From IMG/VR virus record IMGVR_UViG_3300020187_000183, positions 1 to 26,047 of that record: a stretch of DNA of 26,047 bases; one strand, given 5' to 3'. Positions 5,357 to 26,047 of this stretch are shown in pieces; the stretch's first letter is position 1; each line of letters opens with the position of its first letter. Source of the stretch: a virus. Below the pieces are notes generated by a model that had not been told where the DNA came from, did no database searches, and saw only the letters and a program-made list of their open reading frames with translations. The position numbers and the translations under genes were made by a program.

Positions 5357-5843
5357 AATTGGCGATACCGAAGTAAAAGGTGGTATACAAACCACTGTAA
5401 CTAATATTGACCCTGAAACGGGTCAGATTACTTGGGACGTTGATTACACAGCAGATTACAAAAAATTATTTAAGGATATTACTGACCTAATGAAAACAGC
5501 TAAAGAGGTAGCTGATATAACAGGTGAAGCTTTTTTTAAAGACCATTATTTAGATATTAGAAAACGTAGAAATGAGTTAAGAACTTATTTACGTAATAAT
5601 AAATCTGAAGAATATGCTCGCATTAAAGGTTTAGATGAAACCAGTACTACAGGTGGAGGCAACAGTTTTTCATCTCAAGCAGGTGCTGGTGCTCAATATG
5701 CTACCCCAAATGCTTTTAGTAAAAATAAAAAAGGTAAATATGCTGATGGAGGTATGTATACTAAAAAGTTTGGCTACAAATTAGTTCCTAAACCACATTC
5801 TACACCAGGTGTAGAAGTTAAATATTTATGGGGGAAGAAATAA
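5349..5843 (+). CDS. Small virion/core candidate carrying a major-capsid-like motif
   Basis: This 164-residue protein has a beta-rich N-terminus (about 1-35), a helical middle (about 36-95) and a Gly-rich, basic C-terminus. Residues 104-116 read GNSFSSQAGAGAQ, nearly identical to residues 75-87 of the major capsid protein encoded at 9248. A potential gp21-type cleavage site, L-D-E (95-97), lies shortly upstream. The tail ends in basic and aromatic residues (GYKLVPK, VKYLWGKK). I do not recognise a named family. The position between portal and protease suggests a head component or assembly factor. The start overlaps the preceding gene by 8 nt. Confidence 0.8.
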   Translation: MAKIGDTEVKGGIQTTVTNIDPETGQITWDVDYTADYKKLFKDITDLMKTAKEVADITGEAFFKDHYLDIRKRRNELRTYLRNNKSEEYARIKGLDETSTTGGGNSFSSQAGAGAQYATPNAFSKNKKGKYADGGMYTKKFGYKLVPKPHSTPGVEVKYLWGKK

Positions 5844-5844
5844 T

Positions 5845-6090
5845 ATGTATAAGTATAAATTAAATTTAAAAGAACGCGATGAAAATCGAGCAGCATACCA
5901 AGAAAAACGTATTGCTGCTTTTCAAGACATTGAAGCACGTTTAAATAGTTTATACCCTTTAATAGATAAAGCTAAAGATGAAACAATAGCTTACTATCAG
6001 GACAAACCAGAATCATATAGTGTTGTATACGCTACTGATTTGATTTTAGATTATTTAAAAGACATTGACAAATTATTAAAACAGCAATAA
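5845..6090 (+). CDS. Small helical hypothetical protein
   Basis: This 81-residue protein is mostly charged helix (MYKYKLNLKERDENRAAYQE at the start, LILDYLKDIDKLLKQQ at the end). No membrane segment or motif is visible. It begins 2 nt after the previous stop, and its own TAA overlaps the next ATG (TAATG), so it is firmly embedded in the core-protein operon. Size and place resemble the small prohead core proteins of T4 (gp67/gp68), but there is no sequence evidence for homology. Confidence 0.7.
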   Translation: MYKYKLNLKERDENRAAYQEKRIAAFQDIEARLNSLYPLIDKAKDETIAYYQDKPESYSVVYATDLILDYLKDIDKLLKQQ

Positions 6091-7160
6091 TGAAAACACT
6101 TCAAGAACAGTACAACCTTATTAAAGAAGGAAAAGGACACAAGGATGTGTTTATGAAAACTGCATTAAGACAGTTTCCTAACTTATTTAATAACCTAACA
6201 AATTTCCCTACAGCAGTAAAGGTATTGAAACAAAAATCAATCCTATCTGAAGGTGTTGGTGGTGTGGTAACTCAGAATACATCTAACCCATTTGCTAATT
6301 GGGAAAAGTTTTTAGCTGAAGAGGCTAAAGCAGTAGAAAAGGAACCTACTAAAGAAGTAGTTGATATGGAAACCCAGGGTTACGATTATAAGGACCCAAA
6401 ACTCATTGATAATTTATATGGTGAAGCTTTTTTACAAGGGTATTATACAGAAATGAAAGATCCTAAAAATGCTGGTAAGACTGTAGATGAGTTAAAAGAA
6501 ATTGTAGCTAAAAATATGACTAAAGATAGAACATATTATGCTACAAATGCTCAGTTTGGTATCAAAGGCATTGGTTATACAGAAGATGCTCCTGGTTTAG
6601 CTGTATCGGATAAAGAATTAAAAGGTAAATATGCTTCATCTGGTATGGAAGAAGTAAAACTTAAAGAAGATGTAATGGCAAATTTAAAAGATTTATTAAA
6701 AGAAACTCTTAGTGGTTATGTTGATGTTCAGCCTATGAATATCCCAGCTCCAGTTCAAGAAGACGCCCGTACAGATGCCGAAGAAGAAGGCTATTTAGAT
6801 GGAATGCGTGATGAAAAAGCAGACGAAAAAGCTAAAGCTAAAAAGAAAAAAGTTAAAAAAGAAACAGTAGATTCTAAATTAGCTGAAATCGAAAAAGCAG
6901 GTAAAATTACTACATTAGAGGCTCAAATTGAGGCTTTAGATGAAGCAATTGAAACTAAAAACCATAGAATTTCAATGGTAACAGAAGATGATAATCTATC
7001 TGAACTAGTTGATAAAGCTAAAATGAAAGAAATGCAACGTGAAGTTAAAGACCTTGAAAAAAGAAAGGCTAAAATGGAAAAGTTGTACGAAAAAATGTGT
7101 GGTAAAGCTTACTCTAAACCAGAGATGGTAGATGAAGTAACTGAAGAGTACGAAGACTAA
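6090..7160 (+). CDS. Putative prohead core/structural protein with an EDARTDAEEEGY motif
   Basis: This 356-residue protein has three parts. An N-terminal domain (about 1-55, MKTLQEQYNLIKEGKGHKDV at the start) looks like a short helical module. A middle part (about 90-185) contains Tyr/Gly-rich segments. The C-terminal half from about 190 is highly charged and probably coiled coil, with KAKKKKVKKE near 250 and heptad-like helices to residue 345. Residues 224-239 (EDARTDAEEEGYLDGM) match two segments of the gp22-like scaffold. That shared motif and the position directly upstream of the protease suggest a role in the prohead scaffold, possibly as a gp21 substrate. The exact family is not recognised. 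Confidence 0.8.
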   Translation: MKTLQEQYNLIKEGKGHKDVFMKTALRQFPNLFNNLTNFPTAVKVLKQKSILSEGVGGVVTQNTSNPFANWEKFLAEEAKAVEKEPTKEVVDMETQGYDYKDPKLIDNLYGEAFLQGYYTEMKDPKNAGKTVDELKEIVAKNMTKDRTYYATNAQFGIKGIGYTEDAPGLAVSDKELKGKYASSGMEEVKLKEDVMANLKDLLKETLSGYVDVQPMNIPAPVQEDARTDAEEEGYLDGMRDEKADEKAKAKKKKVKKETVDSKLAEIEKAGKITTLEAQIEALDEAIETKNHRISMVTEDDNLSELVDKAKMKEMQREVKDLEKRKAKMEKLYEKMCGKAYSKPEMVDEVTEEYED

Positions 7161-7161
7161 G

Positions 7162-7767
7162 ATGAAAAAAGTACTAGTAGAAACTCAACTCTTTAAACCA
7201 CGAGGTTTAATGTTAACTGAAGGGAAACTCTCGAATAGAGGTAACCCTATGGTTGAGGGTATCCTAGCTACTGCTGAAGTAAAAAATGGTAATGGTCGTT
7301 ACTACCCAAAGGAATTATGGGAACGTGAGATCGATAAATACATGGAATCAGTTAAACAAAACAGAGCATTAGGTGAGTTAGACCACCCAGAATCCTCTGT
7401 TATTAACTTAAAAAATGTATCCCATAATATTACTGAAATGTGGTGGGATGGAGATAAAGTATTAGGTAAAATTGAAATTCTACCTACCCCATCAGGTAAT
7501 ATCTTAAAAGCATTAATCGAAAATAATATTACTGTAGGTGTATCTTCACGTGGAATGGGTTCATTAGAAGATAGGGGTGGTGTATTAGAGGTACAAGATG
7601 ACTTCGAATTACTATGTTGGGATTTTGTTTCAACTCCATCTAACCCAGGTTCATATATGGAAATTGTTACCGAAGGTAAATTAGCTCAAATAAATAAATA
7701 TCAAGGTGTTAATAGTATTGTAAATGAAATTTTATGTGCTAATACTTGTACTTGTTATTTAGACTAA
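7162..7767 (+). CDS. gp21: Prohead core protease (T4 gp21-like serine protease)
   Basis: The 201-residue assembly protease cleaves scaffold, core and capsid proteins during head maturation. The family signature is clear: GELDHPE with catalytic His75, VGVSSRGMG with the nucleophile at Ser128/Ser129, and CWDFVSTPSNPG, whose Asp154 may complete the active site. The N-terminus contains the usual NGNGRYYPKELW segment (42-54). The length is close to T4 gp21 (212). The last residues are unusual in being Cys-rich (LCANTCTCYLD). The start lies 1 nt after the previous stop, and a strong terminator follows 27 nt after its end. It would act inside the prohead on gp22, gp23 and core proteins encoded alongside. 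Confidence 0.93.
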   Translation: MKKVLVETQLFKPRGLMLTEGKLSNRGNPMVEGILATAEVKNGNGRYYPKELWEREIDKYMESVKQNRALGELDHPESSVINLKNVSHNITEMWWDGDKVLGKIEILPTPSGNILKALIENNITVGVSSRGMGSLEDRGGVLEVQDDFELLCWDFVSTPSNPGSYMEIVTEGKLAQINKYQGVNSIVNEILCANTCTCYLD

Positions 7768-7794
7768 TACCTCTGTATTGAGGCGCTACCAAAG

Positions 7795-7822
7795 AACGCT
7801 CTCCGAAAGGGGGGCGTTTTTT
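7795..7822 (+). terminator. Rho-independent terminator after the protease gene
   Basis: AACGCTCTCC (7795-7804) pairs with GGGGGGCGTT (7809-7818), including two G-T wobbles, around a GAAA tetraloop. A run of six T covers 7817-7822. It separates the core/protease operon from the scaffold and capsid unit. Confidence 0.85.
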
Positions 7823-7835
7823 ATGTCTCTTTATA

Positions 7836-7847
7836 TATGTATAGCTG
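7836..7847 (+). promoter_or_regulatory. Putative late promoter motif TATGTATAGCTG (scaffold/capsid)
   Basis: TATGTATA, the G variant of the recurrent TAT(T/G)TATA core, lies 13 nt after the terminator T-run. The start codon is 103 nt further on, so this unit would have a long leader, unlike most others here. Confidence 0.45.
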
Positions 7848-7860
7848 TAACGTGAGCAAT

Positions 7861-7881
7861 ATACTATGATCTATATAGTAT
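7861..7881 (+). promoter_or_regulatory. Leader stem-loop before the scaffold gene
   Basis: ATACTAT (7861-7867) and ATAGTAT (7875-7881) form a perfect 7-bp inverted repeat around a 7-nt loop. It would sit near the 5' end of a scaffold/capsid message started from the motif at 7836. It is AT-only apart from one C-G pair, so weak. A role in mRNA stability is speculative. Confidence 0.3.
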
Positions 7882-7941
7882 TCACTATTTAAATAATTCT
7901 TATTACGTCTCCTAATAGGCGTACTCCACAAACTAAATTTT

Positions 7942-7946
7942 GAGGT
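7942..7946 (+). promoter_or_regulatory. Shine-Dalgarno-like GAGGT of the scaffold gene
   Basis: GAGGT lies 4 nt before the ATG at 7951. It is noted because almost every other gene here lacks a recognisable ribosome binding site, so it may mark stronger or different initiation. Confidence 0.4.
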
Positions 7947-7950
7947 AATT

Positions 7951-9222
7951 ATGGCAAACAGAGATCTGCTTAAAGAAGCAATCGCTGACGCAAAAGCACT
8001 TAAAGAAACTGCTATTGCTAATGCAAAAGTCGCTCTAGAAGAAGCTTTCGAACCAAGACTCAAGTCTATGCTTTCAGCTAAACTTGAAGAAATGGAAAAG
8101 GAAGAATTGGAAGAAAGCGATGTTGAAATGAACGAGGCTAAAGAAGAACTCGATGAAAAATCTGATCGTAAAGACGGAGGTGAAGACAAAGAAACTAAAC
8201 GTACAGAAAAAATGAAGTACGGTAAAGACTTAGCTGAAGCTGAAGTAGACGAAGAGATGGATCTAGACGAAATCTTAGCTGAACTCGAAGGTGATTTATC
8301 TGAAGATGCAAGAACTGACGCTGAGGAAGAAGGCTACAAGGACGGTATGGAAGATGAAAAAGAAGACATGGAAGATAAAGACGAAGATGAAGAAATTGAT
8401 CTTGACGACTTATCAGAAGATGATCTAAAATCATTTATCGAAGACGTAATCGCTGATATGGTTACTGCTGGTGAATTAGAAGCTGGTGATGAATTCGAAG
8501 TTGAAGACGAAGAAGTTGAAGACGATGAAGAAATCGATGTAGAAGATGACACAGAAGTAGACGTTGAAGTTAACGAAGCAAAAGAAGAAATCGATGAAGC
8601 AAAAGATGACATGGATGAAGGCTACGGCAAAGATGATATGGATGAAGGCATCATGGATAAATTGAAAAAAGCTTATAACGATAAAGAACTTCTTTCAAAA
8701 ATCGTAACTGTAGATGGTGAAAAAGTATCTATGAAAGATTTATTAGGACTAGCAGGTGCAGGTGCAACTGGTGGTATGGCTAAATCAGGAGCAGGTAAAA
8801 CATCATCCTTAGGTGAAGATGCTCGTACTGATGCCGAAGAAGAGGGTTACCTCGACGGTATGAAAGACGAAAAAGAAGATATGGATGAAATGAAAAAAGA
8901 AATCGAGGAATTGAGATCTGACCTTCACGAAACTAATCTTTTGAACGCTAAATTGCTTTACACAAATAAAATTTTCAGAGCTAAAAACTTAAAAGAAGCT
9001 CAGAAAGTGAAGGTTCTAGAAGCATTTGATAAAGCATCAAATGTAAAAGAAGTAAAACTTATTTTTGAAACTTTAAATGAGGGTATGGTTGCAAGACCAA
9101 CAACTCAAATTAAAGAATCATTAGGTTCAGCTTCTAAACCAGCTGGTGTTGCTAAAAAAGCTCCTATCATGGAAATTGATCCACAGGTAGCTAGATGGCA
9201 AAAACTTGCAGGTTTAAAATAA
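7951..9222 (+). CDS. gp22: Prohead core scaffolding protein (T4 gp22-like)
   Basis: This 423-residue, extremely acidic, helical protein forms the internal scaffold around which gp23 assembles, and is then degraded by the gp21 protease. Support comes from its place between gp21 and gp23, its Glu/Asp/Lys composition, the acidic block at about 140-220, and the C-terminus PQVARWQKLAGLK, typical of gp22 in marine T4-like phages. It is longer than T4 gp22 (269). The extra length includes two copies of EDARTDAEEEGY(K/L)DGM (118-133 and 289-304), separated by acidic sequence and a Gly-rich linker (about 268-285). NEAKEE also occurs twice. It has a clear GAGGT ribosome binding site and a leader of about 100 nt, fitting high expression. 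Confidence 0.9.
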   Translation: MANRDLLKEAIADAKALKETAIANAKVALEEAFEPRLKSMLSAKLEEMEKEELEESDVEMNEAKEELDEKSDRKDGGEDKETKRTEKMKYGKDLAEAEVDEEMDLDEILAELEGDLSEDARTDAEEEGYKDGMEDEKEDMEDKDEDEEIDLDDLSEDDLKSFIEDVIADMVTAGELEAGDEFEVEDEEVEDDEEIDVEDDTEVDVEVNEAKEEIDEAKDDMDEGYGKDDMDEGIMDKLKKAYNDKELLSKIVTVDGEKVSMKDLLGLAGAGATGGMAKSGAGKTSSLGEDARTDAEEEGYLDGMKDEKEDMDEMKKEIEELRSDLHETNLLNAKLLYTNKIFRAKNLKEAQKVKVLEAFDKASNVKEVKLIFETLNEGMVARPTTQIKESLGSASKPAGVAKKAPIMEIDPQVARWQKLAGLK

Positions 9223-9247: not shown

Positions 9248-10903
9248 ATGTCACAATTAAATTCTCTTTTGAATGAGTCTGCTGGAAGTTGGAAAAACTT
9301 ACAGTCTGACGCGGCTAAATTAGCCAACAAGTGGGATAAAACAGGTTTGTTAGAAGGTCTTGGTAACGAGAACCATAAAAACAGCATGTCAATGATCCTA
9401 GAAAATCAAGCAAAACAATTAGTAACTGAGATCTCTCAAGATGGTGGTTTACCTACTCCAGGTGCTGTTGGTAACAGCTTTTCTGCTCAAGCAGGTGCTG
9501 GTGCTCAATGGGCTGGTATCGCTTTACCATTGGTAAGAAAGGTATTTGGTCAAATCGCTGCTCAAGAATTCGTTTCTGTACAGCCAATGAACCTACCTTC
9601 AGGTCTAGTATTTTACTTAGACTTCCAGTACGGTTCAACTAAGAACGACGAAACTGGTTCTGATCCTTTAGCTTTCACAGAAGGTGACTCAGTTTACGGT
9701 ACTAAAAACTCAGGTGAGTACCCATTCGAAACTAACGGTGCTGCTGGTAACGGTTTATACGGTCCAGGTAGATTCGGTTTCTCATTGAACTCACACTCTG
9801 AAGCTTTAACTGCTGCTTACACTTCAGCATCTTGGAAAGATGTAGGTTTCGATTCAAACCTATCTGCTTCTGTTGCTGCTGGTGAAGTTGGTAAAGTAAC
9901 TATTACTCGTGCTGCTGTTGTAGCTGCTGGTAACGGTGCTGCTGATGTTGATGCTGTAAGAGGTTTCGCTGCTTCTAACGCAGAAGTTGCTTCTCAGTTA
10001 AACGCATTCAACTATGCTGATGCTACTAACTTGTACTTGTTCGTTTCTCAATCTGCTGGTAACGCAGAGGTTGCTGCTGATTTATTATACTCAGTTGTAC
10101 CACAGGATAACACATTAGGTGATTTCCAAAACACAGCTGCTATCCCAGAAATCAACATCCAAATGCGTTCAATGGCTCTTGTTGCTAAAACAAGAAAATT
10201 GAAAGCTGTATGGACTCCAGAATTCGCTCAGGATTTAAATGCTTACCAAGCATTAGATGCTGAAGCTGAGGTAACAAACATCCTTTCTGAGTACATTTCT
10301 TTGGAAATCGATTCTGAAATCTTAGCTATGTTGATCCAAGATGCTGCAGCTGGTACTGAGTACTGGTCAGCTAACGGTAACGAGTTCTACGTTTCTGGTG
10401 ATGACTTCACTCAGAAAGGTGCTGGTAACGGTGGTTTCTACAACACTCAAGGTCAGTGGTTCCAAACTTTAGGTACTAAAGTAAACAAATTATCAAACGA
10501 AATTCACAGATTAACCTTAAGAGGTGGTGCTAATTTCATGGTAGTTTCTCCAACTGTATCTACTATCTTGGAAAGTATTCCTGGATTCGCAGCTGATAAC
10601 TCAGATGCTGAAAAAATGGAGTACGCGTTCGGTATCCAGAAAGCTGGTCAATTGAACGGTCGTTACAAAGTATACAAAAACCCATACATGACAGAAAACA
10701 CTATCTTGTTAGGTTACAGAGGTACTCAGTTCTTGGAAGCTGGTGCGGTATTCGCTCCATACATTCCATTAATCATGACTCCTTTGGTATACGATCCAGA
10801 TACATTCGTACCAAGAAAAGGTCTATTGACTCGCTACGCGAAGAAAATGTTAAGACCAGAATTCTACGGTAAGATCTACGTAAACGGATTGAACTCTCTA
10901 TAA
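9248..10903 (+). CDS. gp23: Major capsid protein (T4 gp23-like)
   Basis: This 551-residue protein forms the head hexamers. The C-terminus (PLIMTPLVYDPDTFVPRKGL, then RYAKKMLRPEFYGKIYVNGL) and the segment FMVVSPTVSTILESIPGF are characteristic of gp23. The N-terminal about 65 residues form a charged helix that should be removed by gp21. Candidate (L/I)xE sites are LNE10, LLE36 and ILE52, with the near match VTE61. Just after them, residues 75-87 (GNSFSAQAGAGAQ) repeat a motif of the small protein encoded at 5349. Two-fold codons end in C (AAC, TTC, TAC, ATC) more often than in neighbouring genes, as expected for the most abundant virion protein. It has no strong ribosome binding site. It is probably co-transcribed with the scaffold and ends before a strong terminator. 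Confidence 0.96.
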   Translation: MSQLNSLLNESAGSWKNLQSDAAKLANKWDKTGLLEGLGNENHKNSMSMILENQAKQLVTEISQDGGLPTPGAVGNSFSAQAGAGAQWAGIALPLVRKVFGQIAAQEFVSVQPMNLPSGLVFYLDFQYGSTKNDETGSDPLAFTEGDSVYGTKNSGEYPFETNGAAGNGLYGPGRFGFSLNSHSEALTAAYTSASWKDVGFDSNLSASVAAGEVGKVTITRAAVVAAGNGAADVDAVRGFAASNAEVASQLNAFNYADATNLYLFVSQSAGNAEVAADLLYSVVPQDNTLGDFQNTAAIPEINIQMRSMALVAKTRKLKAVWTPEFAQDLNAYQALDAEAEVTNILSEYISLEIDSEILAMLIQDAAAGTEYWSANGNEFYVSGDDFTQKGAGNGGFYNTQGQWFQTLGTKVNKLSNEIHRLTLRGGANFMVVSPTVSTILESIPGFAADNSDAEKMEYAFGIQKAGQLNGRYKVYKNPYMTENTILLGYRGTQFLEAGAVFAPYIPLIMTPLVYDPDTFVPRKGLLTRYAKKMLRPEFYGKIYVNGLNSL

Positions 10904-14861: not shown

Positions 14862-16454
14862 GTGGCTCAAATTAATCTTACAAACACAGGCACAGCAGGA
14901 ATAGCAACCCCAGAAAATGGGGTTATTGCTGTTTTTTCTAACACTGCCGACAATGGAAAATTATATTATAAATACGCTGATGGAACTATAACAGAGGTTG
15001 CCTCTGGTGGTGGTGGAGGTACTGGTGGTTCATCTGGTACTTCAGGTTCATCTGGTACCTCAGGCTCATCAGGTACTTCAGGTACAGGTTCATCTGGTAC
15101 TTCAGGCTCATCAGGTACTTCAGGTACAGGTTCATCTGGTACCTCAGGCTCATCAGGTACTTCAGGTGATGGTACTTCAGGTACATCAGGTAGTTCAGGA
15201 ACCTCTGGTTCTTCAGGTACATCAGGACAAGCAGGAACTTCAGGTTCAAGTGGTTCATCTGGTAGCTCTGGTTCATCTGGTACTTCCGGATTAGGTTCTT
15301 CAGGTACATCCGGCTCATCGGGTAGTTCAGGCTCATCGGGTAGTTCAGGCTCATCAGGTACAAGTGGTTCATCTGGTACATCTGCTCCAGGTATAACATC
15401 AGGTACTTCAGGTACAAGTGGTTCATCAGGCTCATCGGGTTCATCAGGCTCATCGGGTTCATCAGGCTCATCAGGTTCGTCAGGCTCATCTGGTACTTCA
15501 GGTAATTCAGGAACTTCAGGTTCATCGGGTTCATCGGGCTCATCAGGCTCATCGGGTTCATCAGGTTCATCTGGTACATCAGGAGATGGTACTTCAGGTA
15601 CTTCAGGTTCATCGGGCTCATCAGGTTCATCAGGCTCATCAGGTTCATCAGGTACATCAGGTCAAGCTGGTACTTCAGGTAGTTCAGGTACCTCTGGTAC
15701 AGGTTCAGCTGTAGGTGTAACAGATGGTAGTACAACAGTTAGTAGTGTAAGTACTATTGAATTTACATCAGGTGCTACAGTAACTAACGGTGGTAGTGGT
15801 ACTGCTGAAGTTGCAATCTCTGGTGGTGGAGGTGGTGTTTCTACAGTCCCTGCTAATTCTGCTAGATATACAATGTATAATACTGCAGATATTTCTATCC
15901 AAGCATACTCTACAGGTACTATATATGCGGGTCTATCTTGGAGTAGATCAGGTACAACTGTAACACTTACATCAACAGCACATGGTTTATCAACAGGTAA
16001 TTTTATTGTAGTTCAAGATGGTTCAGATTCACAATATTATGTTACAGTTACAGCTACTGATACTAATACACTAACTTATACTTCAGCTACTAGTGGTACA
16101 GCATCAGGTACAGATGGTGCTTATTTTGCTGCTTTTGCTATTTCAGGAACCCCTACAGATGCTGGGTATACTATTACAGCTCCAGCAGCAGGTTTACCCC
16201 AGTGTATTTCGTTAAATGGTACAGTCTCAGAAAGCAATGGTGGTTCAACTACGATTACTCTCCCTTCAGAAGGGTTTGGTATTAATTCCTCATCTCAATT
16301 ATTTAACATCCCAGCAGTAACAGTAGCAAATGCTGCTGCCGGTACTTCATCTAATGGAGGTAAAGCAAAAGTTGATACTTCCTCACCATTTACTAGTTTA
16401 GTAGTTGAAGGTTTAATATCTTTAACTAAAACTATGTATCACTGTTCATTTTAA
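14862..16454 (+). CDS. Repeat-bearing tail fibre-like protein 1 (GTS/GSS triplets)
   Basis: The 530-residue protein starts at GTG (MAQINLTNTGTAGIATPENG), a type of N-terminus common in phage fibre or structural proteins, with no ribosome binding site. Residues 1-48 form a small beta domain. After a poly-Gly hinge, residues 56-280 are glycine-first triplets of Ser and Thr with two GQA units, one proline (SAPG) and register breaks at GTG, GDG and GLG. Residues 299-326 form a beta-motif (IEFTSGATV, ending AEVAISGGGGG) also seen before the repeats of the next gene. The remaining about 200 residues are a Thr/Ser/Ala-rich beta domain with a STAHGLSTGNFIVV motif typical of phage tail proteins. The likely role is a short fibre or spike, with the C-terminus as receptor-binding or trimer tip. 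Confidence 0.85.
   Translation: MAQINLTNTGTAGIATPENGVIAVFSNTADNGKLYYKYADGTITEVASGGGGGTGGSSGTSGSSGTSGSSGTSGTGSSGTSGSSGTSGTGSSGTSGSSGTSGDGTSGTSGSSGTSGSSGTSGQAGTSGSSGSSGSSGSSGTSGLGSSGTSGSSGSSGSSGSSGSSGTSGSSGTSAPGITSGTSGTSGSSGSSGSSGSSGSSGSSGSSGSSGTSGNSGTSGSSGSSGSSGSSGSSGSSGTSGDGTSGTSGSSGSSGSSGSSGSSGTSGQAGTSGSSGTSGTGSAVGVTDGSTTVSSVSTIEFTSGATVTNGGSGTAEVAISGGGGGVSTVPANSARYTMYNTADISIQAYSTGTIYAGLSWSRSGTTVTLTSTAHGLSTGNFIVVQDGSDSQYYVTVTATDTNTLTYTSATSGTASGTDGAYFAAFAISGTPTDAGYTITAPAAGLPQCISLNGTVSESNGGSTTITLPSEGFGINSSSQLFNIPAVTVANAAAGTSSNGGKAKVDTSSPFTSLVVEGLISLTKTMYHCSF
15027..15701 (+). repeat. GTS/GSS triplet array in fibre gene 1
   Basis: About 75 tandem 9-nt units encode Gly-(Thr/Ser)-Ser. Synonymous codons vary (TCA, TCT, TCC, TCG, AGT, AGC; GGT, GGC, GGA), so the peptide is more uniform than the DNA. 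The phase stays in multiples of three throughout. Confidence 0.95.
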
Positions 16455-16571: not shown

Positions 16572-19500
16572 ATGTCACAACAATTATTTTTAGGAAAAAT
16601 TAGTTTAGGTCAAGATGCTAATCAAACTAATTTTATAACATTTCAAGGTACTACGGTAGTAGGTTCTGATAGAGTAACTGCTATTTCAACTGGTACTTCA
16701 AAATTTAGAGTAGGCCAAACTATTACTACTGTAGGTAGTGCATTTGCGTCAAATCCTACAATATTATCTATTATTAGTAATACTGAAGTTGAAGTAGATC
16801 AAAATGCAACAACTAGTAGAACAGGTATTTTAGGTTTAAATGCTGGAACAGATTCTTACTACCTTTCAGGTAGTTTTACAGATCCTACCAATAAAAATAC
16901 AGTCCTTGCTGTTACAGGTAGTGATGATGCTGATTTTGAAGGAAATGAATGGGCTTGTATTATTCCCTCTATGGACGAAAATGGAACAGCACTCCCTGGT
17001 GTGTTCCATGTATATGATATTACTTCTGTAGTTGATAGAGATAATAGTTCAGCAGCAATAGATTTTTTCGTTAAATACGGAGAAAGTGGATCTGAAGCTG
17101 ATTATAATCAATATGTAGATACTGGTCAAAGAGTATATGGTTTAGTCCAAAGATCTACTTTAGAAGATTTATCCCCTTCAGTTAGTAAAGGGATTTCAGG
17201 CTTAAATGATCTCCCTGGGGGTATAGAAGTTGCAGGTTTAAATATATTAGTTACAGATTATTTAGATAATTTTACTTTAACAGATATTTACTATACAGGT
17301 TCAGAAGTTTTAATTAATACCCAAAACATGAACTTTACAGGTTCTGGTGTTGAAGTAACAACTTCAGGTTCAGAAGGAGTATTAGTAACTATAGAAGGTG
17401 GTTTAGCTGAAATTCCAGTATCAGCAAGTGATGCTGGAGTTGGTTTAGCAACAGAATTTAATTTTAGTGGCTCAGGAGTAGATGGAGTTACTATTTCAGG
17501 CGGAATCGCCACCGTAGAAATCTCAGGTGGTGGAGGTTCAGGCACTTCAGGCTCTTCTGGTACAAGTGGAACTTCAGGCTCATCTGGTACTTCAGGTAAT
17601 GGTACATCAGGTACATCAGGTTCTTCAGGTACTAGTGGTTCTTCAGGTACATCAGGAGATGGAACTTCAGGTACATCAGGTTCATCAGGTACTTCAGGTA
17701 GCTCAGGTACCTCAGGTAATGGTACTTCGGGTACATCGGGTTCATCAGGAACAAGTGGTTCTTCAGGAACAAGTGGTTCTTCAGGAACTTCAGGTACTGG
17801 TACTTCAGGTACTTCAGGTACTTCAGGTACTTCAGGTACTTCAGGCTCATCTGGTACTTCAGGTAGTTCAGGAACATCAGGTTCATCAGGTACTTCAGGA
17901 TTAGGTAGTTCAGGTACCTCAGGTAGCTCAGGTACTTCTGGTAATGGTACATCTGGTACATCGGGTTCTTCAGGTACATCAGGTAGTTCAGGCACATCAG
18001 GTTCTTCAGGTACATCAGGAGATGGTACATCCGGTACTTCAGGAACAAGTGGTTCTTCAGGAACTTCTGGTTCATCAGGTTCATCAGGTACTTCAGGCAC
18101 TGGTACTTCAGGTACTTCAGGTACTTCAGGTACTTCAGGTTCATCAGGAACCTCAGGTAGTTCAGGAACTTCAGGTACATCAGGTTCATCAGGTACTTCA
18201 GGAACAAGTGGTTCTTCAGGAACAAGTGGTTCTTCAGGAACTTCTGGTTCATCAGGTACTTCAGGCACTGGTACTTCAGGTACTTCAGGTACTTCAGGTT
18301 CATCAGGAACCTCAGGTAGTTCAGGAACTTCAGGTACATCAGGTTCATCAGGTACTTCCGGTACATCAGGTTCATCAGGTACAAGTGGATCATCAGGTAC
18401 TTCAGGTAATGGCACTTCAGGCACATCAGGCTCATCAGGTACATCAGGTTCATCAGGTTCATCAGGTACTTCCGGTACATCAGGTTCATCAGGTACTTCC
18501 GGTACATCAGGTTCATCAGGTACTTCCGGTACTTCCGGTACATCAGGTACAAGTGGATCATCAGGTACTTCAGGTAATGGCACTTCAGGTACATCGGGTA
18601 CATCAGGCTCATCAGGCTCATCAGGCACATCAGGCTCATCAGGTACATCAGGTTCCTCAGGTACATCAGGTAGTTCAGGAACTTCAGGTACATCAGGTAG
18701 TTCAGGTACATCCGGTACTTCAGGTAGCTCAGGTACTTCTGGTAATGGTACTTCAGGTTCAAGTGGTACATCAGGTACATCAGGTTCTTCAGGTACATCA
18801 GGAGATGGAACTTCAGGTACATCAGGTTCATCAGGTACATCAGGCTCATCAGGTACAAGTGGAACATCAGGTTCTTCAGGAACTTCAGGTAATGGTACTT
18901 CAGGTACATCAGGTTCATCAGGAACAAGTGGTACATCGGGTACATCAGGTTCTTCAGGTACTAGTGGTTCTTCAGGTACATCAGGAGATGGAACTTCAGG
19001 TACATCAGGTTCATCAGGTACCTCAGGCTCATCAGGTACTTCAGGTTCAGGAACTTCAGGCACATCAGGCACATCAGGTTCTTCAGGTAGTTCAGGCACA
19101 TCAGGTTCTTCAGGTAGTTCAGGCACATCAGGTTCTTCAGGTAGTTCAGGTACAAGTGGATCATCAGGTACTAGTGGATCATCTGGTACATCAGGTTCAT
19201 CAGGAACTTCAGGTTCAGGTACATCAGGATCATCGGGTACATCAGGTACTTCAGGTAGCTCAGGTACTTCAGGTAGCTCAGGTACTTCAGGTAGCTCAGG
19301 TACTTCAGGTAGCTCAGGTTCATCTGGTACATCAGGAACATCAGGTTCCTCGGGTACATCAGGTTCTTCTGGAACATCAGGTTCAGGTACTTCTGGTACT
19401 AGTGGCTCAAGTGGTAGTTCAGGCACAAGTGGTAGTTCAGGTACCTCAGGAAATGGTGGAACCGCTGGTACTTCAGGTTCATCTGGTACATCAGGTTCCT

Positions 19501-22500
19501 CGGGTACATCAGGTTCATCAGGTACTTCAGGATTAGGTAGCTCAGGTACCTCAGGTAGCTCAGGTACTTCTGGTAATGGTACATCAGGAACAAGTGGTTC
19601 TTCAGGAACAAGTGGTTCTTCGGGCTCCTCAGGTACCTCAGGTAATTCAGGTACTTCAGGTTCATCAGGTACATCAGGTACATCAGGTTCTTCAGGTACT
19701 AGTGGTTCTTCAGGTACTTCAGGAACAAATGGAACTTCAGGTACTTCAGGTACAGGTACTTCAGGTACTAGTGGCTCAAGTGGTAGTTCAGGTTCTAGTG
19801 GTTCATCAGGTACTTCTGGTGATGGTGGAACTGCTGGTACTTCAGGTACATCAGGATCTTCAGGTACATCAGGTTCATCTGGAACTTCTGGTGTTTCAGG
19901 TGTTGATGGTGTTGCGGGTACAGGAGGTTCATCAGGTACTTCAGGTACATCAGGTAATGGTACTTCAGGTACATCTGGTACAAGTGGTTCCTCAGGTACT
20001 TCAGGTTCATCAGGCTCATCAGGCTCATCAGGAACTTCAGGTTCCTCAGGTACTTCAGGTTCATCAGGTTCATCAGGAACTTCAGGTAGCTCAGGTTCTA
20101 GTGGCTCATCAGGTACATCTGGTAATGGTACATCAGGTACTTCAGGTAGTTCTGGTTCTTCAGGTACTTCAGGAAATAGTGGAACATCAGGTTCTTCAGG
20201 TAGTTCAGGTTCTTCAGGTACCTCAGGCTCTTCAGGCACCTCAGGCTCTTCAGGTACCTCAGGCTCAAGTGGTAGCTCAGGTACTTCAGGCTCAAGTGGT
20301 AGTTCAGGTACCTCAGGAATAGGTACTTCGGGAACATCAGGCTCATCTGGTACATCAGGCTCATCTGGTACATCAGGCTCATCAGGCTCATCAGGTTCAT
20401 CAGGCTCATCAGGTTCATCAGGCTCATCAGGCTCAAGTGGTAGCTCAGGTACTTCAGGAAGCGGTACTTCTGGTACTTCAGGTTCATCAGGTACTTCAGG
20501 AACTTCTGGTTCCTCAGGAACTTCAGGCTCATCAGGTACTTCAGGTTCATCAGGTACTTCAGGAACTTCTGGTTCCTCAGGAACTTCAGGCTCATCAGGT
20601 ACTTCAGGCTCAAGTGGTAGTTCAGGTACCTCAGGAATAGGTACTTCGGGAACTTCAGGTAGTTCAGGTACATCAGGATCATCAGGTTCTTCAGGTAGTT
20701 CAGGTACCTCAGGTTCATCAGGTACTTCAGGAACTTCTGGTTCCTCAGGCTCAAGTGGTAGCTCAGGTACTTCAGGAAGCGGTACTTCAGGTACATCAGG
20801 GTCATCAGGTACTTCAGGAACTTCAGGTAGTTCAGGTACATCAGGATCATCAGGTTCTTCAGGTAGTTCAGGTACCTCAGGTTCATCAGGTACTTCAGGT
20901 AGTTCAGGCTCAAGTGGTTCATCAGGAACTTCAGGCTCAGGTACTTCAGGTACTAGTGGATCATCAGGAACTTCAGGTTCTTCAGGTAGTTCAGGAACTT
21001 CAGGTTCCTCGGGTACGTCAGGTTCCTCAGGTACGTCAGGTTCATCTGGTAGCTCAGGTAGTTCAGGTTCTTCAGGTACCTCAGGCTCAAGTGGTAGTTC
21101 AGGTACCTCAGGAATAGGTACTTCAGGAACATCAGGTAGTTCAGGTACCTCAGGTTCATCAGGTAGTTCAGGTACTTCAGGAACATCAGGTAGTTCAGGT
21201 ACCTCAGGTTCATCAGGTACCTCAGGCTCAAGTGGTAGCTCAGGTACTTCAGGAAGCGGTACTTCAGGTACATCAGGGTCATCAGGTACTTCAGGCAGCT
21301 CAGGTTCATCAGGTTCAAGTGGTTCATCAGGAACAAGTGGTACATCGGGTACATCAGGTTCTTCAGGTACAAGTGGTTCATCAGGTTCTTCTGGTTCTTC
21401 AGGTACAAGTGGTTCATCAGGTTCTTCTGGTACTTCAGGTATAGGTTCATCAGGTACTAGTGGTACTTCAGGTAGTTCAGGTTCATCAGGTTCATCAGGT
21501 TCTTCAGGTTCATCAGGTTCATCGGGTTCCTCAGGTTCATCAGGTTCATCAGGTTCATCAGGTACTTCAGGCTCAGCTGGTACGTCAGGTTCATCTGGTA
21601 CATCAGGCAGCTCAGGCAGCTCAGGCAGCTCAGGCAGCTCAGGCAGCTCAGGCTCTTCAGGTACTTCTGGATCAGCTGGTACTTCAGGCTCATCAGGTAC
21701 TTCAGGCTCAAGTGGTTCAAGCGGTAGCTCTGGTAGTTCAGGTTCTTCAGGTTCATCAGGTACATCAGGAAGCGGTACTTCTGGTACATCTGGTTCATCA
21801 GGCACTTCAGGATCATCTGGTACTTCAGGTTCATCGGGTACTTCTGGTACGTCAGGTTCATCAGGTACTTCAGGCTCATCTGGTAGTTCAGGTACATCTG
21901 GTTCTTCTGGTACTTCAGGCTCATCAGGTTCTAGTGGTACTTCAGGTATAGGTTCATCGGGTACTAGTGGTACATCTGGTTCATCAGGTTCATCTGGTAG
22001 TTCAGGCTCATCTGGTAGTTCAGGTTCATCAGGTACTTCAGGCTCATCTGGTACTTCAGGCTCATCTGGTACTTCAGGAACTTCTGGTTCTTCAGGTTCA
22101 TCTGGTAGCTCAGGTAGCTCAGGTAGCTCAGGTAGCTCAGGTTCATCAGGTACATCAGGTTCAGCTGGTACTTCAGGTACAAGCGGTAGCTCAGGTAGCT
22201 CAGGCTCATCTGGTAGTTCAGGTTCATCTGGTACATCAGGTAGTTCAGGTTCATCTGGTACATCAGGTAGCTCAGGTTCATCAGGTAGCTCAGGCTCATC
22301 TGGTAGTTCAGGTTCATCAGGTAGTTCAGGTACTTCAGGTTCATCGGGTACAGCAGGAACTTCAGGTTCATCTGGTAGTTCAGGTAGCTCAGGTAGTTCA
22401 GGTAGTTCAGGTAGCTCAGGTTCATCAGGTACATCAGGTTCTTCTGGTACTTCAGGTATAGGTTCCTCAGGTACTAGTGGTACTTCAGGCAGCTCAGGCT

Positions 22501-23405
22501 CATCAGGCTCTTCAGGCTCTTCAGGCTCTTCAGGCTCTTCAGGCTCATCAGGTACTTCAGGTTCATCAGGCTCATCTGGTAGCTCAGGTTCATCAGGTAC
22601 TTCAGGATCTTCTGGAACTTCAGGTTCATCAGGTTCATCAGGTTCATCAGGTTCTTCAGGTTCATCAGGTTCTTCAGGCTCTTCAGGCACTTCAGGCTCA
22701 TCTGGTAGCTCGGGTAGTTCAGGTTCATCTGGTTCATCAGGTAGTTCTGGTACTTCAGGTGTAATTAATGTTTCATCTTCAGGAAATAATAGAGTATTAA
22801 CTGATATTGATGGTTCAAATGCTACTGCTGAAGAAAACTTAACTTTTGATGGTAATGAATTATTAGTAACAGGTACTATTATAACAACAGGTAGTTTACC
22901 AATTACTGCTGATGATAGTGGGGTTTACTTTAATAATGAAGCCTCAGGTTCTCATATTAGACATAATACACTAGCAGAACTAGAAATTTCATCTAGTGTA
23001 GGGATTAATTTTGTAGGTACTGTAAACCAAGGTATTGGTGCTAGTGGTGGTTCTTTAGTACAAACTCAAACTTTAAGTACTACAATCCCAGCAAATGGAC
23101 TTATAGATGTTCTATCTGTAGCTAATATAACTATGAATTCTACTGATTATTTAGGTTTAAAAGCTGATTATGCTTTAGAAACTCAAATAGGAGGTAGAAG
23201 ATTTGGTACAATAGAAGTAATATTTAATAGTACAATTGCAAGTTTTACAGATAACTCAACACGGGATGTTCCTACTAATGGTACTCAAGGAGATGAATTT
23301 GCAGTACAAGTACAATCTGGTGAATTAGAAGTATTATTTGGTGCTTTTGGAGGTCATGGTAGTGTAGATTTAGCCATGTCATTTAAATTAATAGCAGTTC
23401 CTTAA
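16572..23405 (+). CDS. Giant repeat fibre protein 2 (2,277 residues, GTS/GSS triplets)
   Basis: Residues 1-323 are a unique N-terminal region. It starts MSQQLFLGKISLGQDANQTN and has a VTAISTGTSKFRVGQTITTV beta segment, a mixed middle, and two copies of a beta-motif at 253-277 (MNFTGSGVEV, ending VTIEGG) and 296-321 (FNFSGSGVDGVTI, ending VEISGGGG). Residues 324-2062 are almost pure Gly-(Thr/Ser)-Ser triplets with about thirty single-residue register breaks (GN, GD, GT, GL, GS, GI) and a few variant units (GTA, GVS, GVD). The C-terminal 215 residues start VINVSSSGNNRVLTDIDGSN, a type of head-binding or fibre-tip module seen after repeats in phage fibres, and end in a beta domain. The protein probably forms a very long fibre or whisker. 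The promoter, two leader hairpins and terminators on both sides make it its own transcription unit. There is no frameshift or stop anywhere in the array. Confidence 0.88.
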   Translation: MSQQLFLGKISLGQDANQTNFITFQGTTVVGSDRVTAISTGTSKFRVGQTITTVGSAFASNPTILSIISNTEVEVDQNATTSRTGILGLNAGTDSYYLSGSFTDPTNKNTVLAVTGSDDADFEGNEWACIIPSMDENGTALPGVFHVYDITSVVDRDNSSAAIDFFVKYGESGSEADYNQYVDTGQRVYGLVQRSTLEDLSPSVSKGISGLNDLPGGIEVAGLNILVTDYLDNFTLTDIYYTGSEVLINTQNMNFTGSGVEVTTSGSEGVLVTIEGGLAEIPVSASDAGVGLATEFNFSGSGVDGVTISGGIATVEISGGGGSGTSGSSGTSGTSGSSGTSGNGTSGTSGSSGTSGSSGTSGDGTSGTSGSSGTSGSSGTSGNGTSGTSGSSGTSGSSGTSGSSGTSGTGTSGTSGTSGTSGTSGSSGTSGSSGTSGSSGTSGLGSSGTSGSSGTSGNGTSGTSGSSGTSGSSGTSGSSGTSGDGTSGTSGTSGSSGTSGSSGSSGTSGTGTSGTSGTSGTSGSSGTSGSSGTSGTSGSSGTSGTSGSSGTSGSSGTSGSSGTSGTGTSGTSGTSGSSGTSGSSGTSGTSGSSGTSGTSGSSGTSGSSGTSGNGTSGTSGSSGTSGSSGSSGTSGTSGSSGTSGTSGSSGTSGTSGTSGTSGSSGTSGNGTSGTSGTSGSSGSSGTSGSSGTSGSSGTSGSSGTSGTSGSSGTSGTSGSSGTSGNGTSGSSGTSGTSGSSGTSGDGTSGTSGSSGTSGSSGTSGTSGSSGTSGNGTSGTSGSSGTSGTSGTSGSSGTSGSSGTSGDGTSGTSGSSGTSGSSGTSGSGTSGTSGTSGSSGSSGTSGSSGSSGTSGSSGSSGTSGSSGTSGSSGTSGSSGTSGSGTSGSSGTSGTSGSSGTSGSSGTSGSSGTSGSSGSSGTSGTSGSSGTSGSSGTSGSGTSGTSGSSGSSGTSGSSGTSGNGGTAGTSGSSGTSGSSGTSGSSGTSGLGSSGTSGSSGTSGNGTSGTSGSSGTSGSSGSSGTSGNSGTSGSSGTSGTSGSSGTSGSSGTSGTNGTSGTSGTGTSGTSGSSGSSGSSGSSGTSGDGGTAGTSGTSGSSGTSGSSGTSGVSGVDGVAGTGGSSGTSGTSGNGTSGTSGTSGSSGTSGSSGSSGSSGTSGSSGTSGSSGSSGTSGSSGSSGSSGTSGNGTSGTSGSSGSSGTSGNSGTSGSSGSSGSSGTSGSSGTSGSSGTSGSSGSSGTSGSSGSSGTSGIGTSGTSGSSGTSGSSGTSGSSGSSGSSGSSGSSGSSGSSGSSGTSGSGTSGTSGSSGTSGTSGSSGTSGSSGTSGSSGTSGTSGSSGTSGSSGTSGSSGSSGTSGIGTSGTSGSSGTSGSSGSSGSSGTSGSSGTSGTSGSSGSSGSSGTSGSGTSGTSGSSGTSGTSGSSGTSGSSGSSGSSGTSGSSGTSGSSGSSGSSGTSGSGTSGTSGSSGTSGSSGSSGTSGSSGTSGSSGTSGSSGSSGSSGSSGTSGSSGSSGTSGIGTSGTSGSSGTSGSSGSSGTSGTSGSSGTSGSSGTSGSSGSSGTSGSGTSGTSGSSGTSGSSGSSGSSGSSGTSGTSGTSGSSGTSGSSGSSGSSGTSGSSGSSGTSGIGSSGTSGTSGSSGSSGSSGSSGSSGSSGSSGSSGSSGSSGTSGSAGTSGSSGTSGSSGSSGSSGSSGSSGSSGTSGSAGTSGSSGTSGSSGSSGSSGSSGSSGSSGTSGSGTSGTSGSSGTSGSSGTSGSSGTSGTSGSSGTSGSSGSSGTSGSSGTSGSSGSSGTSGIGSSGTSGTSGSSGSSGSSGSSGSSGSSGTSGSSGTSGSSGTSGTSGSSGSSGSSGSSGSSGSSGSSGTSGSAGTSGTSGSSGSSGSSGSSGSSGTSGSSGSSGTSGSSGSSGSSGSSGSSGSSGSSGTSGSSGTAGTSGSSGSSGSSGSSGSSGSSGSSGTSGSSGTSGIGSSGTSGTSGSSGSSGSSGSSGSSGSSGSSGTSGSSGSSGSSGSSGTSGSSGTSGSSGSSGSSGSSGSSGSSGSSGTSGSSGSSGSSGSSGSSGSSGTSGVINVSSSGNNRVLTDIDGSNATAEENLTFDGNELLVTGTIITTGSLPITADDSGVYFNNEASGSHIRHNTLAELEISSSVGINFVGTVNQGIGASGGSLVQTQTLSTTIPANGLIDVLSVANITMNSTDYLGLKADYALETQIGGRRFGTIEVIFNSTIASFTDNSTRDVPTNGTQGDEFAVQVQSGELEVLFGAFGGHGSVDLAMSFKLIAVP
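17541..22757 (+). repeat. 5.2-kb GTS/GSS triplet array in fibre gene 2
   Basis: This is a continuous array of 9-nt Gly-X-Ser units, interrupted by 6-nt units that break the triplet register. Higher-order and recent duplications are visible: GGTACTTCA x5 at 17799-17843, an 18-bp unit at 19254-19316, GGCAGCTCA x5 at 21606-21650, GGTAGCTCA x4 at 22104-22139 and GGCTCTTCA x4 at 22506-22541. There is no proline in the array. Assembly length should be treated with caution in such repeats. Confidence 0.95.
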
Positions 23406-23533: not shown

Positions 23534-26047
23534 ATGGCAAACGAATTTTTTATTAGGAAAGGTATAATTGTATCTGGCTCTGTAGCAGAAATTATACCCC
23601 CCATCTCAGCTTCTATTATCTCAGCTTCAGCTGATATTGAAGCAGCAAACATTATAACCCCAGGAGATATAACTATATCTGGAAGTATTATTGTAGAAAA
23701 TTTTACTACAGGTACTTCTAATGAAGTTGTAGTATATAATAATACAACTAAAGAATTAGAGGTTAAAACTAATGCCTCTTCATCAGGTACCTCAGGTACC
23801 TCAGGTACTTCAGGTACTTCAGGTAGTTCAGGCTCTTCAGGCTCTTCAGGCTCATCAGGCTCATCAGGTTCATCTGGTACAAGTGGTAGTTCAGGTTCTA
23901 GCGGTTCATCAGGTACTTCAGGTAACTCAGGTACTTCAGGTACTTCAGGTTCAAGTGGTTCATCAGGTTCAAGTGGTTCATCAGGTAGTTCAGGTTCCTC
24001 AGGTACAAGTGGTTCTTCGGGAACATCAGGTTCTTCAGGAACTTCAGGTATAGGCTCTTCAGGTACTTCAGGTACTTCAGGTTCAAGTGGTTCATCAGGT
24101 TCAAGCGGTAGCTCAGGTTCATCGGGTTCATCAGGTACTTCAGGCTCTTCAGGTACATCAGGTTCATCAGGCTCTTCAGGTACATCAGGTTCATCAGGCT
24201 CATCAGGCTCATCAGGTAGCTCAGGCTCAAGTGGTAGTTCGGGTTCATCAGGTACTTCAGGAGTAGCAGGTACTTCAGGAACTTCAGGCTCATCGGGTAC
24301 AAGTGGTTCATCAGGTAGTTCAGGTTCATCAGGCTCATCAGGTTCATCAGGCTCATCAGGTACATCTGGTTCATCAGGTACTTCAGGTTCATCAGGTAGC
24401 TCAGGCTCAAGTGGTAGTTCAGGTTCATCAGGAACTTCAGGTTCTTCTGGTACCTCTGGTAGTTCAGGTACTTCAGGTTCTAGTGGTTCATCAGGCTCAA
24501 GTGGTAGCTCTGGTTCATCAGGCAGCTCGGGTTCATCAGGTAGCTCAGGTACTTCTGGTACAACAGGTACTTCAGGTACTAGTGGTTCATCAGGTAGTTC
24601 AGGCTCTTCAGGCTCATCAGGCTCATCAGGCTCATCAGGTTCATCAGGTACCTCGGGTTCATCAGGCACCTCGGGTTCATCAGGTACATCAGGTAGTTCA
24701 GGCTCATCAGGTTCATCAGGTTCAAGTGGATCAAGCGGTAGTTCAGGTTCAAGCGGTACATCAGGTTCAGCTGGAACATCAGGCACTAGTGGCTCAAGCG
24801 GTAGTTCAGGTTCATCAGGCTCAAGCGGTAGCTCTGGCTCATCAGGTACTTCGGGTTCATCAGGTACCTCAGGTAGTTCAGGTTCAAGTGGTTCATCAGG
24901 CTCATCTGGTAGCTCAGGCTCATCAGGTACAAGTGGTTCAGCAGGTACCTCAGGTACAAGTGGTTCAAGCGGTAGCTCAGGTTCATCAGGTAGCTCAGGC
25001 TCAAGTGGTAGTTCGGGTTCATCAGGCACTAGTGGATCAAGTGGTACATCTGGTTCTTCAGGTAGTTCAGGCTCAAGCGGTAGCTCAGGTTCATCAGGTT
25101 CATCTGGTACTTCGGGTTCTTCAGGAACAAGCGGTAGTTCAGGTTCATCAGGTTCATCAGGTAGTTCAGGCTCATCTGGCAGCTCTGGTACTTCAGGTTC
25201 CTCAGGAACAAGTGGTTCATCAGGTACCTCAGGAAGTTCAGGCTCAAGTGGTAGTTCAGGTTCTTCAGGTACTTCTGGTTCCGCCGGTACTTCAGGTTCA
25301 TCAGGTACCTCAGGTTCTTCAGGTTCATCAGGTAGCTCAGGCTCATCAGGTAGTTCAGGTTCCTCAGGAACAAGTGGTTCATCAGGTACCTCAGGAAGTT
25401 CAGGCTCAAGCGGTAGCTCAGGTTCATCTGGTAGCTCAGGCTCTTCAGGAACTTCAGGTTCATCAGGTACATCAGGTTCTTCGGGCTCATCAGGTAGCTC
25501 CGGCTCAAGTGGTAGTTCAGGTTCTTCAGGAACAAGTGGTTCATCAGGTACCTCAGGAAGTTCAGGCTCAAGCGGTAGCTCAGGTTCATCTGGTAGCTCA
25601 GGAAGTTCAGGTACATCAGGCTCATCAGGAACAAGCGGTTCATCAGGTAGTTCAGGTACTTCAGGCTCTAGCGGTTCAAGCGGTACTTCAGGTTCTTCAG
25701 GTACAAGTGGATCATCAGGTTCTTCAGGTACATCAGGCTCTTCAGGAAGCTCAGGTACATCAGGTTCTTCTGGTACTTCAGGTAGCTCAGGTTCATCAGG
25801 TACTTCAGGTAGCTCAGGTTCATCAGGTACTTCAGGTTCTTCAGGTACAAGTGGATCATCGGGTTCATCAGGTACATCAGGAAGTTCAGGTTCATCAGGT
25901 ACTTCAGGCAGCTCAGGTACTTCAGGCTCAAGTGGTTCATCAGGTACTTCAGGCTCATCAGGTAGCTCAGGTACCTCAGGTAGTTCAGGCTCATCAGGTA
26001 CTTCAGGTACTCCAAGTTATACAGCAATTTGGAAATATGATACTGAT
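23534..26047 (+). CDS. Repeat fibre protein 3 (partial, runs off the window)
   Basis: An ATG at 23534 opens a frame that stays open for 838 codons to the last base, so the 3' end is missing. The N-terminus MANEFFIRKGIIVSGSVAEI, followed by alternating Ile/Ser/Ala segments and GDITISGSIIVENFTTGTSN, is typical of phage tail-fibre anchors. Residues 85-824 are Gly-(Thr/Ser)-Ser triplets with very few changes (single GNS, GVA, GTT and some GSA units) and only one register break (GIG, near 24047). The array is therefore much more regular than in the preceding gene. After it, GTPSYTAIWKYDTD begins the next domain. The gene has its own promoter-like motif and shares the leader hairpin of the giant fibre gene. 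It probably encodes a second long fibre with a different tip. Confidence 0.88.
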   Translation, partial: MANEFFIRKGIIVSGSVAEIIPPISASIISASADIEAANIITPGDITISGSIIVENFTTGTSNEVVVYNNTTKELEVKTNASSSGTSGTSGTSGTSGSSGSSGSSGSSGSSGSSGTSGSSGSSGSSGTSGNSGTSGTSGSSGSSGSSGSSGSSGSSGTSGSSGTSGSSGTSGIGSSGTSGTSGSSGSSGSSGSSGSSGSSGTSGSSGTSGSSGSSGTSGSSGSSGSSGSSGSSGSSGSSGTSGVAGTSGTSGSSGTSGSSGSSGSSGSSGSSGSSGTSGSSGTSGSSGSSGSSGSSGSSGTSGSSGTSGSSGTSGSSGSSGSSGSSGSSGSSGSSGSSGTSGTTGTSGTSGSSGSSGSSGSSGSSGSSGSSGTSGSSGTSGSSGTSGSSGSSGSSGSSGSSGSSGSSGTSGSAGTSGTSGSSGSSGSSGSSGSSGSSGTSGSSGTSGSSGSSGSSGSSGSSGSSGTSGSAGTSGTSGSSGSSGSSGSSGSSGSSGSSGTSGSSGTSGSSGSSGSSGSSGSSGSSGTSGSSGTSGSSGSSGSSGSSGSSGSSGTSGSSGTSGSSGTSGSSGSSGSSGSSGTSGSAGTSGSSGTSGSSGSSGSSGSSGSSGSSGTSGSSGTSGSSGSSGSSGSSGSSGSSGTSGSSGTSGSSGSSGSSGSSGSSGSSGTSGSSGTSGSSGSSGSSGSSGSSGSSGTSGSSGTSGSSGSSGTSGSSGSSGTSGSSGTSGSSGSSGTSGSSGSSGTSGSSGTSGSSGSSGTSGSSGSSGTSGSSGTSGSSGSSGTSGSSGSSGTSGSSGTSGSSGSSGTSGSSGSSGTSGSSGSSGTSGTPSYTAIWKYDTD
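23786..26005 (+). repeat. 2.2-kb GTS/GSS triplet array in fibre gene 3
   Basis: About 247 triplet units are nearly uninterrupted. Serine codons alternate widely (TCA, AGT, AGC, TCT), with many GGTTCAAGTGG and GGTTCAAGCGG variants that are rarer in the earlier arrays, so the array has its own DNA-level history. Confidence 0.95.

Follow-up and report, generated by a model that had tools for sequence, protein, structure and literature searches.

Why should one acidic peptide recur, nearly unchanged in its residues, in two different proteins encoded in the head gene cluster of a marine phage? The question is raised by the IMG/VR virus record IMGVR_UViG_3300020187_000183, of which positions 1 to 26,047 were analysed (26,047 nucleotides, one strand; further referred to as the window). 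The window contains a T4-type head cluster with a portal (phrog_213), a protease (PF03420), a gene in the scaffold position and a Gp23 major capsid protein (MCP, PF07068). The peptide EDARTDAEEEGY begins at nt 6759, 8302 and 8815, as the initial annotation had reported, and occurs nowhere else in the six frames of the window. The first copy starts at residue 224 of the protein encoded by the open reading frame (ORF) at 6090–7160, further called the 6090 protein; the other two start at residues 118 and 289 of the gp22-like scaffold (7951–9222). We consider it fairly probable that this motif is a linear module, selected and disordered, carried by prohead core proteins, and that a predicted cut immediately ahead of its first residue would yield acidic fragments.

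Distribution and conservation of the motif

In its fuller form the motif reads EDARTDAEEEGY[LK]DGM at all three sites. The shared stretch is longer than first noted and comprises 22 residues, 86–91% identical among copy A, EDARTDAEEEGYLDGMRDEKAD (6759–6824), copy B, EDARTDAEEEGYKDGMEDEKED (8302–8367), and copy C, EDARTDAEEEGYLDGMKDEKED (8815–8880), all on the plus strand and established by sequence scan and codon comparison. Among the ORFs of the window head region the ungapped local match of the motif pair scored 107, well beyond the shuffled maximum of 72. The true repeat unit, of about 21–24 residues, is [LIVM]xE-[DN]ARTDAEEEGYxDGMxDxKxD.

Further carriers were collected by a scaffold search of IMG/VR viral contigs (80 loci) and by degenerate-DNA scans, which added many more. 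After the first scans the set held 270 motif-bearing proteins, duplicates from overlapping loci included: 215 scaffolds, 46 homologues of the 6090 protein and 9 others. At least one copy was found in 131 of the 134 complete unique scaffolds (no copy in 3, one in 47, two in 60, three in 24), and 27 of the 113 unique complete homologues of the 6090 protein carry the motif. Scaffold copies align at several places rather than at a single orthologous one, and some stand head-to-tail with an exact period of 24 residues. Within one phage group no fewer than three protein families carry the motif; one more carrier is a 399-amino-acid protein encoded upstream of the terminase (7110–8309) in L138, the contig nearest to the window. 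The exact core pattern was found in just 5 contigs from 84,980 prokaryote species genomes, all of them phage-like where read and some lying in metagenome-assembled genomes of Flavobacteriales. The first degenerate DNA scan gave unrelated acidic proteins, and a looser scan for further lineages gave only gp22-type scaffolds and one more MDNFN-type protein. A tblastn search of GenBank phages with the motif alone gave no match, which is no proof of absence, as low-complexity filtering very likely masks the motif. No motif-bearing isolate was encountered among GenBank phages.

Some of the motif-bearing non-scaffold proteins start with M[DN]NFDL[RT]KYLAEGKL or its variant. This N-terminus is common to otherwise different ORFs (L146:9396–9988, L138:7110–8309, L232:9–762) and resembles a capsid targeting sequence ending in LAE. 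In a separate non-scaffold protein (L262:5421–5732) the motif follows VAE close to the C-terminus, and the last residues, ARFKKLAGLI, are similar to the conserved scaffold tail [RW]xKLAG[IL]. The motif was looked for in the scaffolds of Flavobacterium phage immuto and Microcystis phage Mel-JY01 and was absent from both. The immuto scaffold (L081:9001–10242) contains a different direct repeat of about 63 residues (EGFEQWLDSVSAQMDKFGKN...), the copies of which start after VNE or LEE, and the scaffold of uncultured phage LR756508 has its own DGYEPV[TS]G repeat.

The many synonymous differences noticed earlier among the three window copies were confirmed, the codon identity at identical residues being 0.42–0.53. 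Over the whole set it equals 0.63 within scaffolds, 0.58 between scaffolds and the 6090 protein and 0.60 between genomes, with 0.59 expected from codon usage alone, while the residue identity is 0.85. Codon identity at the random level combined with about 85% residue identity means that the synonymous sites have been randomised, the peptide has been kept and the copies are old. The exceptions are two tandem pairs with codon identity of 0.89–0.95, i.e. recent ones. Hence the proposal of a selected peptide with diverged DNA stands, now over hundreds of copies: the motif is kept in homologous core proteins, and the copies, bar a few tandem pairs, are not recent duplications.

The motif stretches are predicted to be disordered. 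We used only the contrast between order and disorder in the AlphaFold2 models, as their overall confidence is low (predicted template modelling scores of 0.29 and 0.25). In the model of the 6090 protein a helical N-terminal part is followed by a disordered linker (residues 167–255) and a C-terminal coiled coil (260–337); copy A lies within the linker, with a predicted local distance difference test score (pLDDT) of about 40. Copy B in the scaffold is disordered as well (pLDDT below 50 at residues 118–147), and copy C starts disordered, its tail entering a long helix (298–345). The initial annotation's suggestion of an acidic helix is therefore not supported, with copies A and B in stretches of pLDDT below 50 and only the tail of copy C meeting a helix.

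The predicted protease site ahead of the motif

The T4 protease gp21 cuts after L/I-X-E (PMC9026906). We widened this rule to LIVM because the MCP site here is VxE: in motif-bearing phages the MCP site is V-x-E (in the window, LVTE-ISQD), which gives the local rule for P3, and in Mel-JY01 it is I-x-E. A conforming triplet was predicted ahead of each window copy. It is V-Q-E for copy A (6753–6761), where 6090-family homologues were also considered, L-S-E for copy B (8296–8304), where flank tallies were, and L-G-E for copy C (8809–8817); motif-less relatives keep I/V-G-E at the last place, followed by A. The residues ahead of the motif follow the sequence rule for a gp21-type substrate site.

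When the scaffold contexts were aligned on the core, P1 was E in 189 of 190 and P3 was one of LIVM in 188 of 190, with P2 variable. In the whole gp21-type lineage these numbers are 248 and 235 of 249. All 26 contexts from 6090-family homologues have E at P1, and their P3 is T (11), V (9), M (5) or L (1). Among groups of unrelated upstream flanks, 20 of 22 conform in every member, vs a background of 6.35% in the same scaffolds (binomial P 2e-22). Where a relative lacks the motif, [LIVM]xE is retained in 39 of 45 distinct cases, the next residue being mostly A or S; in a few of the 45 the motif is in fact present in the relative but shifted in the alignment. More telling is the P3 residue itself, compared in 40 of the 45 rows, copied by hand: it differs in 16 of the 40 pairs, yet is hydrophobic in 37. 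A site that is kept without the motif and has its P3 swapped but still hydrophobic is a separate element, and the motif is an interchangeable segment behind it. As a prediction, a link to cleavage, one of several roles offered at the outset, has good support from the [LIVM]xE signature and from its replacement with M/F in another lineage described below.

The following mechanism is suggested. The motif begins exactly at P1' of a predicted [LIVM]xE site within disordered linkers of the scaffold and a few partner core proteins. The core proteins would be strung with maturation cut sites, one shared peptide standing behind many of them, and a gp21-type protease would cut before each copy during maturation. 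The core would thereby fall apart into acidic pieces with (D/N)ARTDAEEEGY at their N-termini, which are comparable to the small T4 fragments of gp22 and gp67; a tandem 24-residue unit has a mass of about 2.8 kDa and a charge of −8.

Several observations weigh against this reading. Threonine at P3 in 11 of the 26 6090-family copies departs from the rule. The [LIVM]xE triplet is common in acidic scaffolds (6.35% of positions), the context counts are not independent events, which the flank-cluster test corrects only partly, and the 39 of 45 retained sites come through a flank filter that favours conserved P1 and flanks. Cleavage by gp21 needs only L/I-x-E, leaving 20 fixed prime-side residues unexplained. 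The downstream end of the motif has no conserved cleavage site, so a discrete 24-mer would be released only from tandem copies or at chance sites. The motif is absent from 3 of the 134 complete scaffolds and from the isolates immuto and Mel-JY01, and hence is not required for gp22-type assembly. Finally, the C-terminal fragment of T4 gp22 whose mass agrees with 2.5 kDa has hardly any acidic character, with a charge of −1.

As a separate observation, residues ~204–243 of the window scaffold (approximately 8560–8680) form a run of short segments ending with [VIM][ND]E (EVNE AKEEIDE AKDDMDE GYGKDDMDE G). Relatives bear a motif copy at this place.

A second head lineage and the alternative explanations

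The motif is also present in contigs of another type (L212-type), further referred to as the second lineage. Their portal belongs to another family (PF04860 just below the curated cut-off; PHROGs portal families at 3e-40), and their protease is of the XkdF type (PF14550). In 32 of 32 pairs the motif is in the ORF directly upstream of the putative MCP, that is, in the scaffold position; the identity of this MCP rests on position, given that a PDB sequence search with it gave no match. More distant relatives of the motif protein lack the motif. The codon identity between the lineages is 0.54. The residue before the core is M or F in 34 of 34 cases, and in 20 of 20 found by searches unrestricted at that position (Fisher p 3e-29). 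A common core with a lineage-specific upstream neighbour places the border just before D/N. The simplest account would be that each lineage's own protease cuts there, which for the second lineage is a conjecture.

Fixed R, T and GYxDG imply a specific partner, and the distribution over two lineages disfavours one unique to gp20, gp21 or gp23. The same core in two lineages that differ in portal, protease and apparently capsid protein likewise speaks against docking of the kind that the initial annotation had proposed, to one of these proteins in particular. More speculatively, the conserved R, T and GYxDG with the spaced acidic residues may recognise a ligand that both lineages have, either ahead of the cut or once it has been made; candidates are a host factor, cations, a part of the HK97-fold shell or the peptide itself.

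Docking could also be the whole function. A pure assembly motif, binding scaffold to scaffold, to the shell, to the portal or to the protease, would have [LIVM]xE as a part of its recognition surface and would not be cut there. The fixed prime-side residues, exceeding the needs of a gp21-type protease, the copies in several protein families and the placement in disordered linkers all suit such a motif. For one surface it is odd that the upstream residues vary with the type of protease in the lineage (E vs M/F) and the core does not, and that [LIVM]xE persists where the core is absent. We regard pure docking as rather unlikely.

Another possibility, which we put forward only tentatively, is that unrelated head systems separately acquired the core, (D/N)ARTDAEEEGYxDGxxDxKxD, as a movable scaffold module, each time behind the signature of their own protease. 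It would bind a common partner, the simplest candidates being a host assembly factor and the peptide itself.

A host-directed role is doubtful to a greater degree. The peptide might bind a host factor, e.g. a chaperone or protease, or be a host-directed tag, and for this reason be common to unrelated phages with different portal and protease families; its near absence from the prokaryote genome collection indicates that hosts do not commonly carry the sequence themselves. However, immuto and Mel-JY01 do without the peptide, and the two lineages are not known to share hosts.

It is very improbable that an acidic low-complexity segment was recently duplicated or gene-converted as DNA and that the peptide has no role. 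The tandem copies, with their two recent pairs, and the unrelated repeats of other scaffolds are what such an origin would predict; for most copies it was contradicted by codon identity at the random expectation, and the conserved R, T, G, Y and G are not low-complexity residues. Metal or cation binding, raised initially for calcium, is suggested by the acidic composition only and is highly unlikely, as no Pfam metal-binding match or EF-hand-like loop was found in the sequence and specific non-acidic residues are fixed.

The cleaved-module reading is thus retained as the preferred one, and the recurrence of the peptide in the second lineage suggests a reusable assembly or maturation tag.

Head genes of the window and comparison with known systems

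The neighbour assignments made earlier hold: a portal, a Peptidase_S77 protease and a Gp23 MCP flank the motif genes. The four genes described next are on the plus strand. The 6090 protein (6090–7160, 356 amino acids, N-terminus MKTLQEQYNLIKEG), a core-protein candidate, lies between the portal and the protease, in the place of T4 gp67/gp68. The gp21-like prohead core serine protease (7162–7767; PF03420, 7.9e-33; phrog_207, 2.8e-58) has the N-terminus MKKVLVE-TQLF, resembling LLIE-TWGQ in the T4 gp21 sequence. The scaffold (7951–9222, 423 amino acids, its two copies in or beside disordered linkers) lies between this protease and the MCP (9248–10903; PF07068, 1.6e-73). Immuto has the same gene order, as does Mel-JY01 apart from some additional small genes. 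These two phages and LR756508 are the nearest named relatives, and only their scaffolds show homology to the window scaffold among GenBank phages. No meaningful Pfam or PHROGs family match was found for the motif-bearing window proteins, including the curated gp22 family for the scaffold. We call the latter gp22-like because of its position, its homology to the ORF in the same place in immuto and its helical, acidic make-up; it is not a proven member of the family.

A parallel to the cleaved module is provided by the MCP. The protein encoded at 5349 mimics (5640–5702), right after an [LMIV]xE site (LDE), the mature N-terminal arm that follows the VxE site of the MCP (9431–9514): the MCP has LVTE-ISQDGGLPTPGAVGNSFSAQAGAGAQW and the 5349 protein, GLDE-TSTTGGGNSFSSQAGAGAQYA. 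The two arms co-vary (partial Spearman 0.67 given the MCP body distance, Mantel p 0.002, 60 distinct pairs). The 5349 protein may belong to the head, be processed and use the binding site of the MCP arm. The co-variation suggests that peptides starting at cleavage sites are conserved for a role after the cut, in support of the preferred reading. The string VQPMN, common to the 6090 protein and the MCP, occurs in only two 6090 homologues and was set aside as probably chance or very local.

Elsewhere in the window, the ORF at 75–422 opens with MKRSELAEYIKETIVDVLTEA, a helix-like N-terminal stretch ending with LTE-A; in relatives it reads MK[KR]SELxxxIK...L[ST]E[AV]. Three long ORFs (14862–16454, 16572–23405 and 23534–26047, the middle one of 2277 amino acids) consist largely of GTSGSSG repeats and are probably tail or fibre proteins.

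The motif bears on two questions about T4-type heads, the construction and dismantling of the core and the function of the small peptides that stay behind. A near-invariant peptide at predicted sites, varying in presence and copy number and recurring in a second lineage with a different protease, allows comparative tests of whether the core is cleaved and of what the released peptides would do. That one scaffold peptide should be common to unrelated capsid systems would be unexpected and points to a common partner.

The system is best seen as a variant on the way gp22-type cores are processed, its distribution across lineages being an unexplained feature. As in T4, the order is portal, small core genes, protease, scaffold and MCP, and the scaffold is acidic and helical with many L/I-x-E sites. 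The mature T4 head keeps 115 copies of a 2.5 kDa gp22 fragment and 139 of a 3.9 kDa gp67 fragment (PMC9026906). By the T4 definition of internal peptides, with sites at both ends or a site and the C-terminus, the exact 24-residue tandem units would fit, and single copies have no conserved downstream site. T4 gp22 and gp67 lack such a repeated conserved peptide, whereas here the module is in several proteins. The capsid targeting sequence of T4 IPII and IPIII (MKTYQEFIAE-A) is, like the motif, a short peptide found in several core proteins and bordering a gp21 site. However, it is N-terminal, on the P side and removed, whereas the motif is a repeated element and, in every family where it was found, lies inside the protein and on the P' side, and so is not a peptide of this kind. 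The N-terminus of the 6090 protein, MKTLQEQYNLIKE-G, does resemble the T4 sequence; its E is not kept in all homologues, and cleavage there was retained as a lead only. The prohead proteases of giant phages follow similar three-residue rules ending in E and applied to many head proteins, S/A-X-E in phiKZ and A-X-E in SPN3US (PMC9026906, PMC10052503). In contrast to them, P3 here is L, I, V or M, and the site is followed by a long conserved prime-side peptide.

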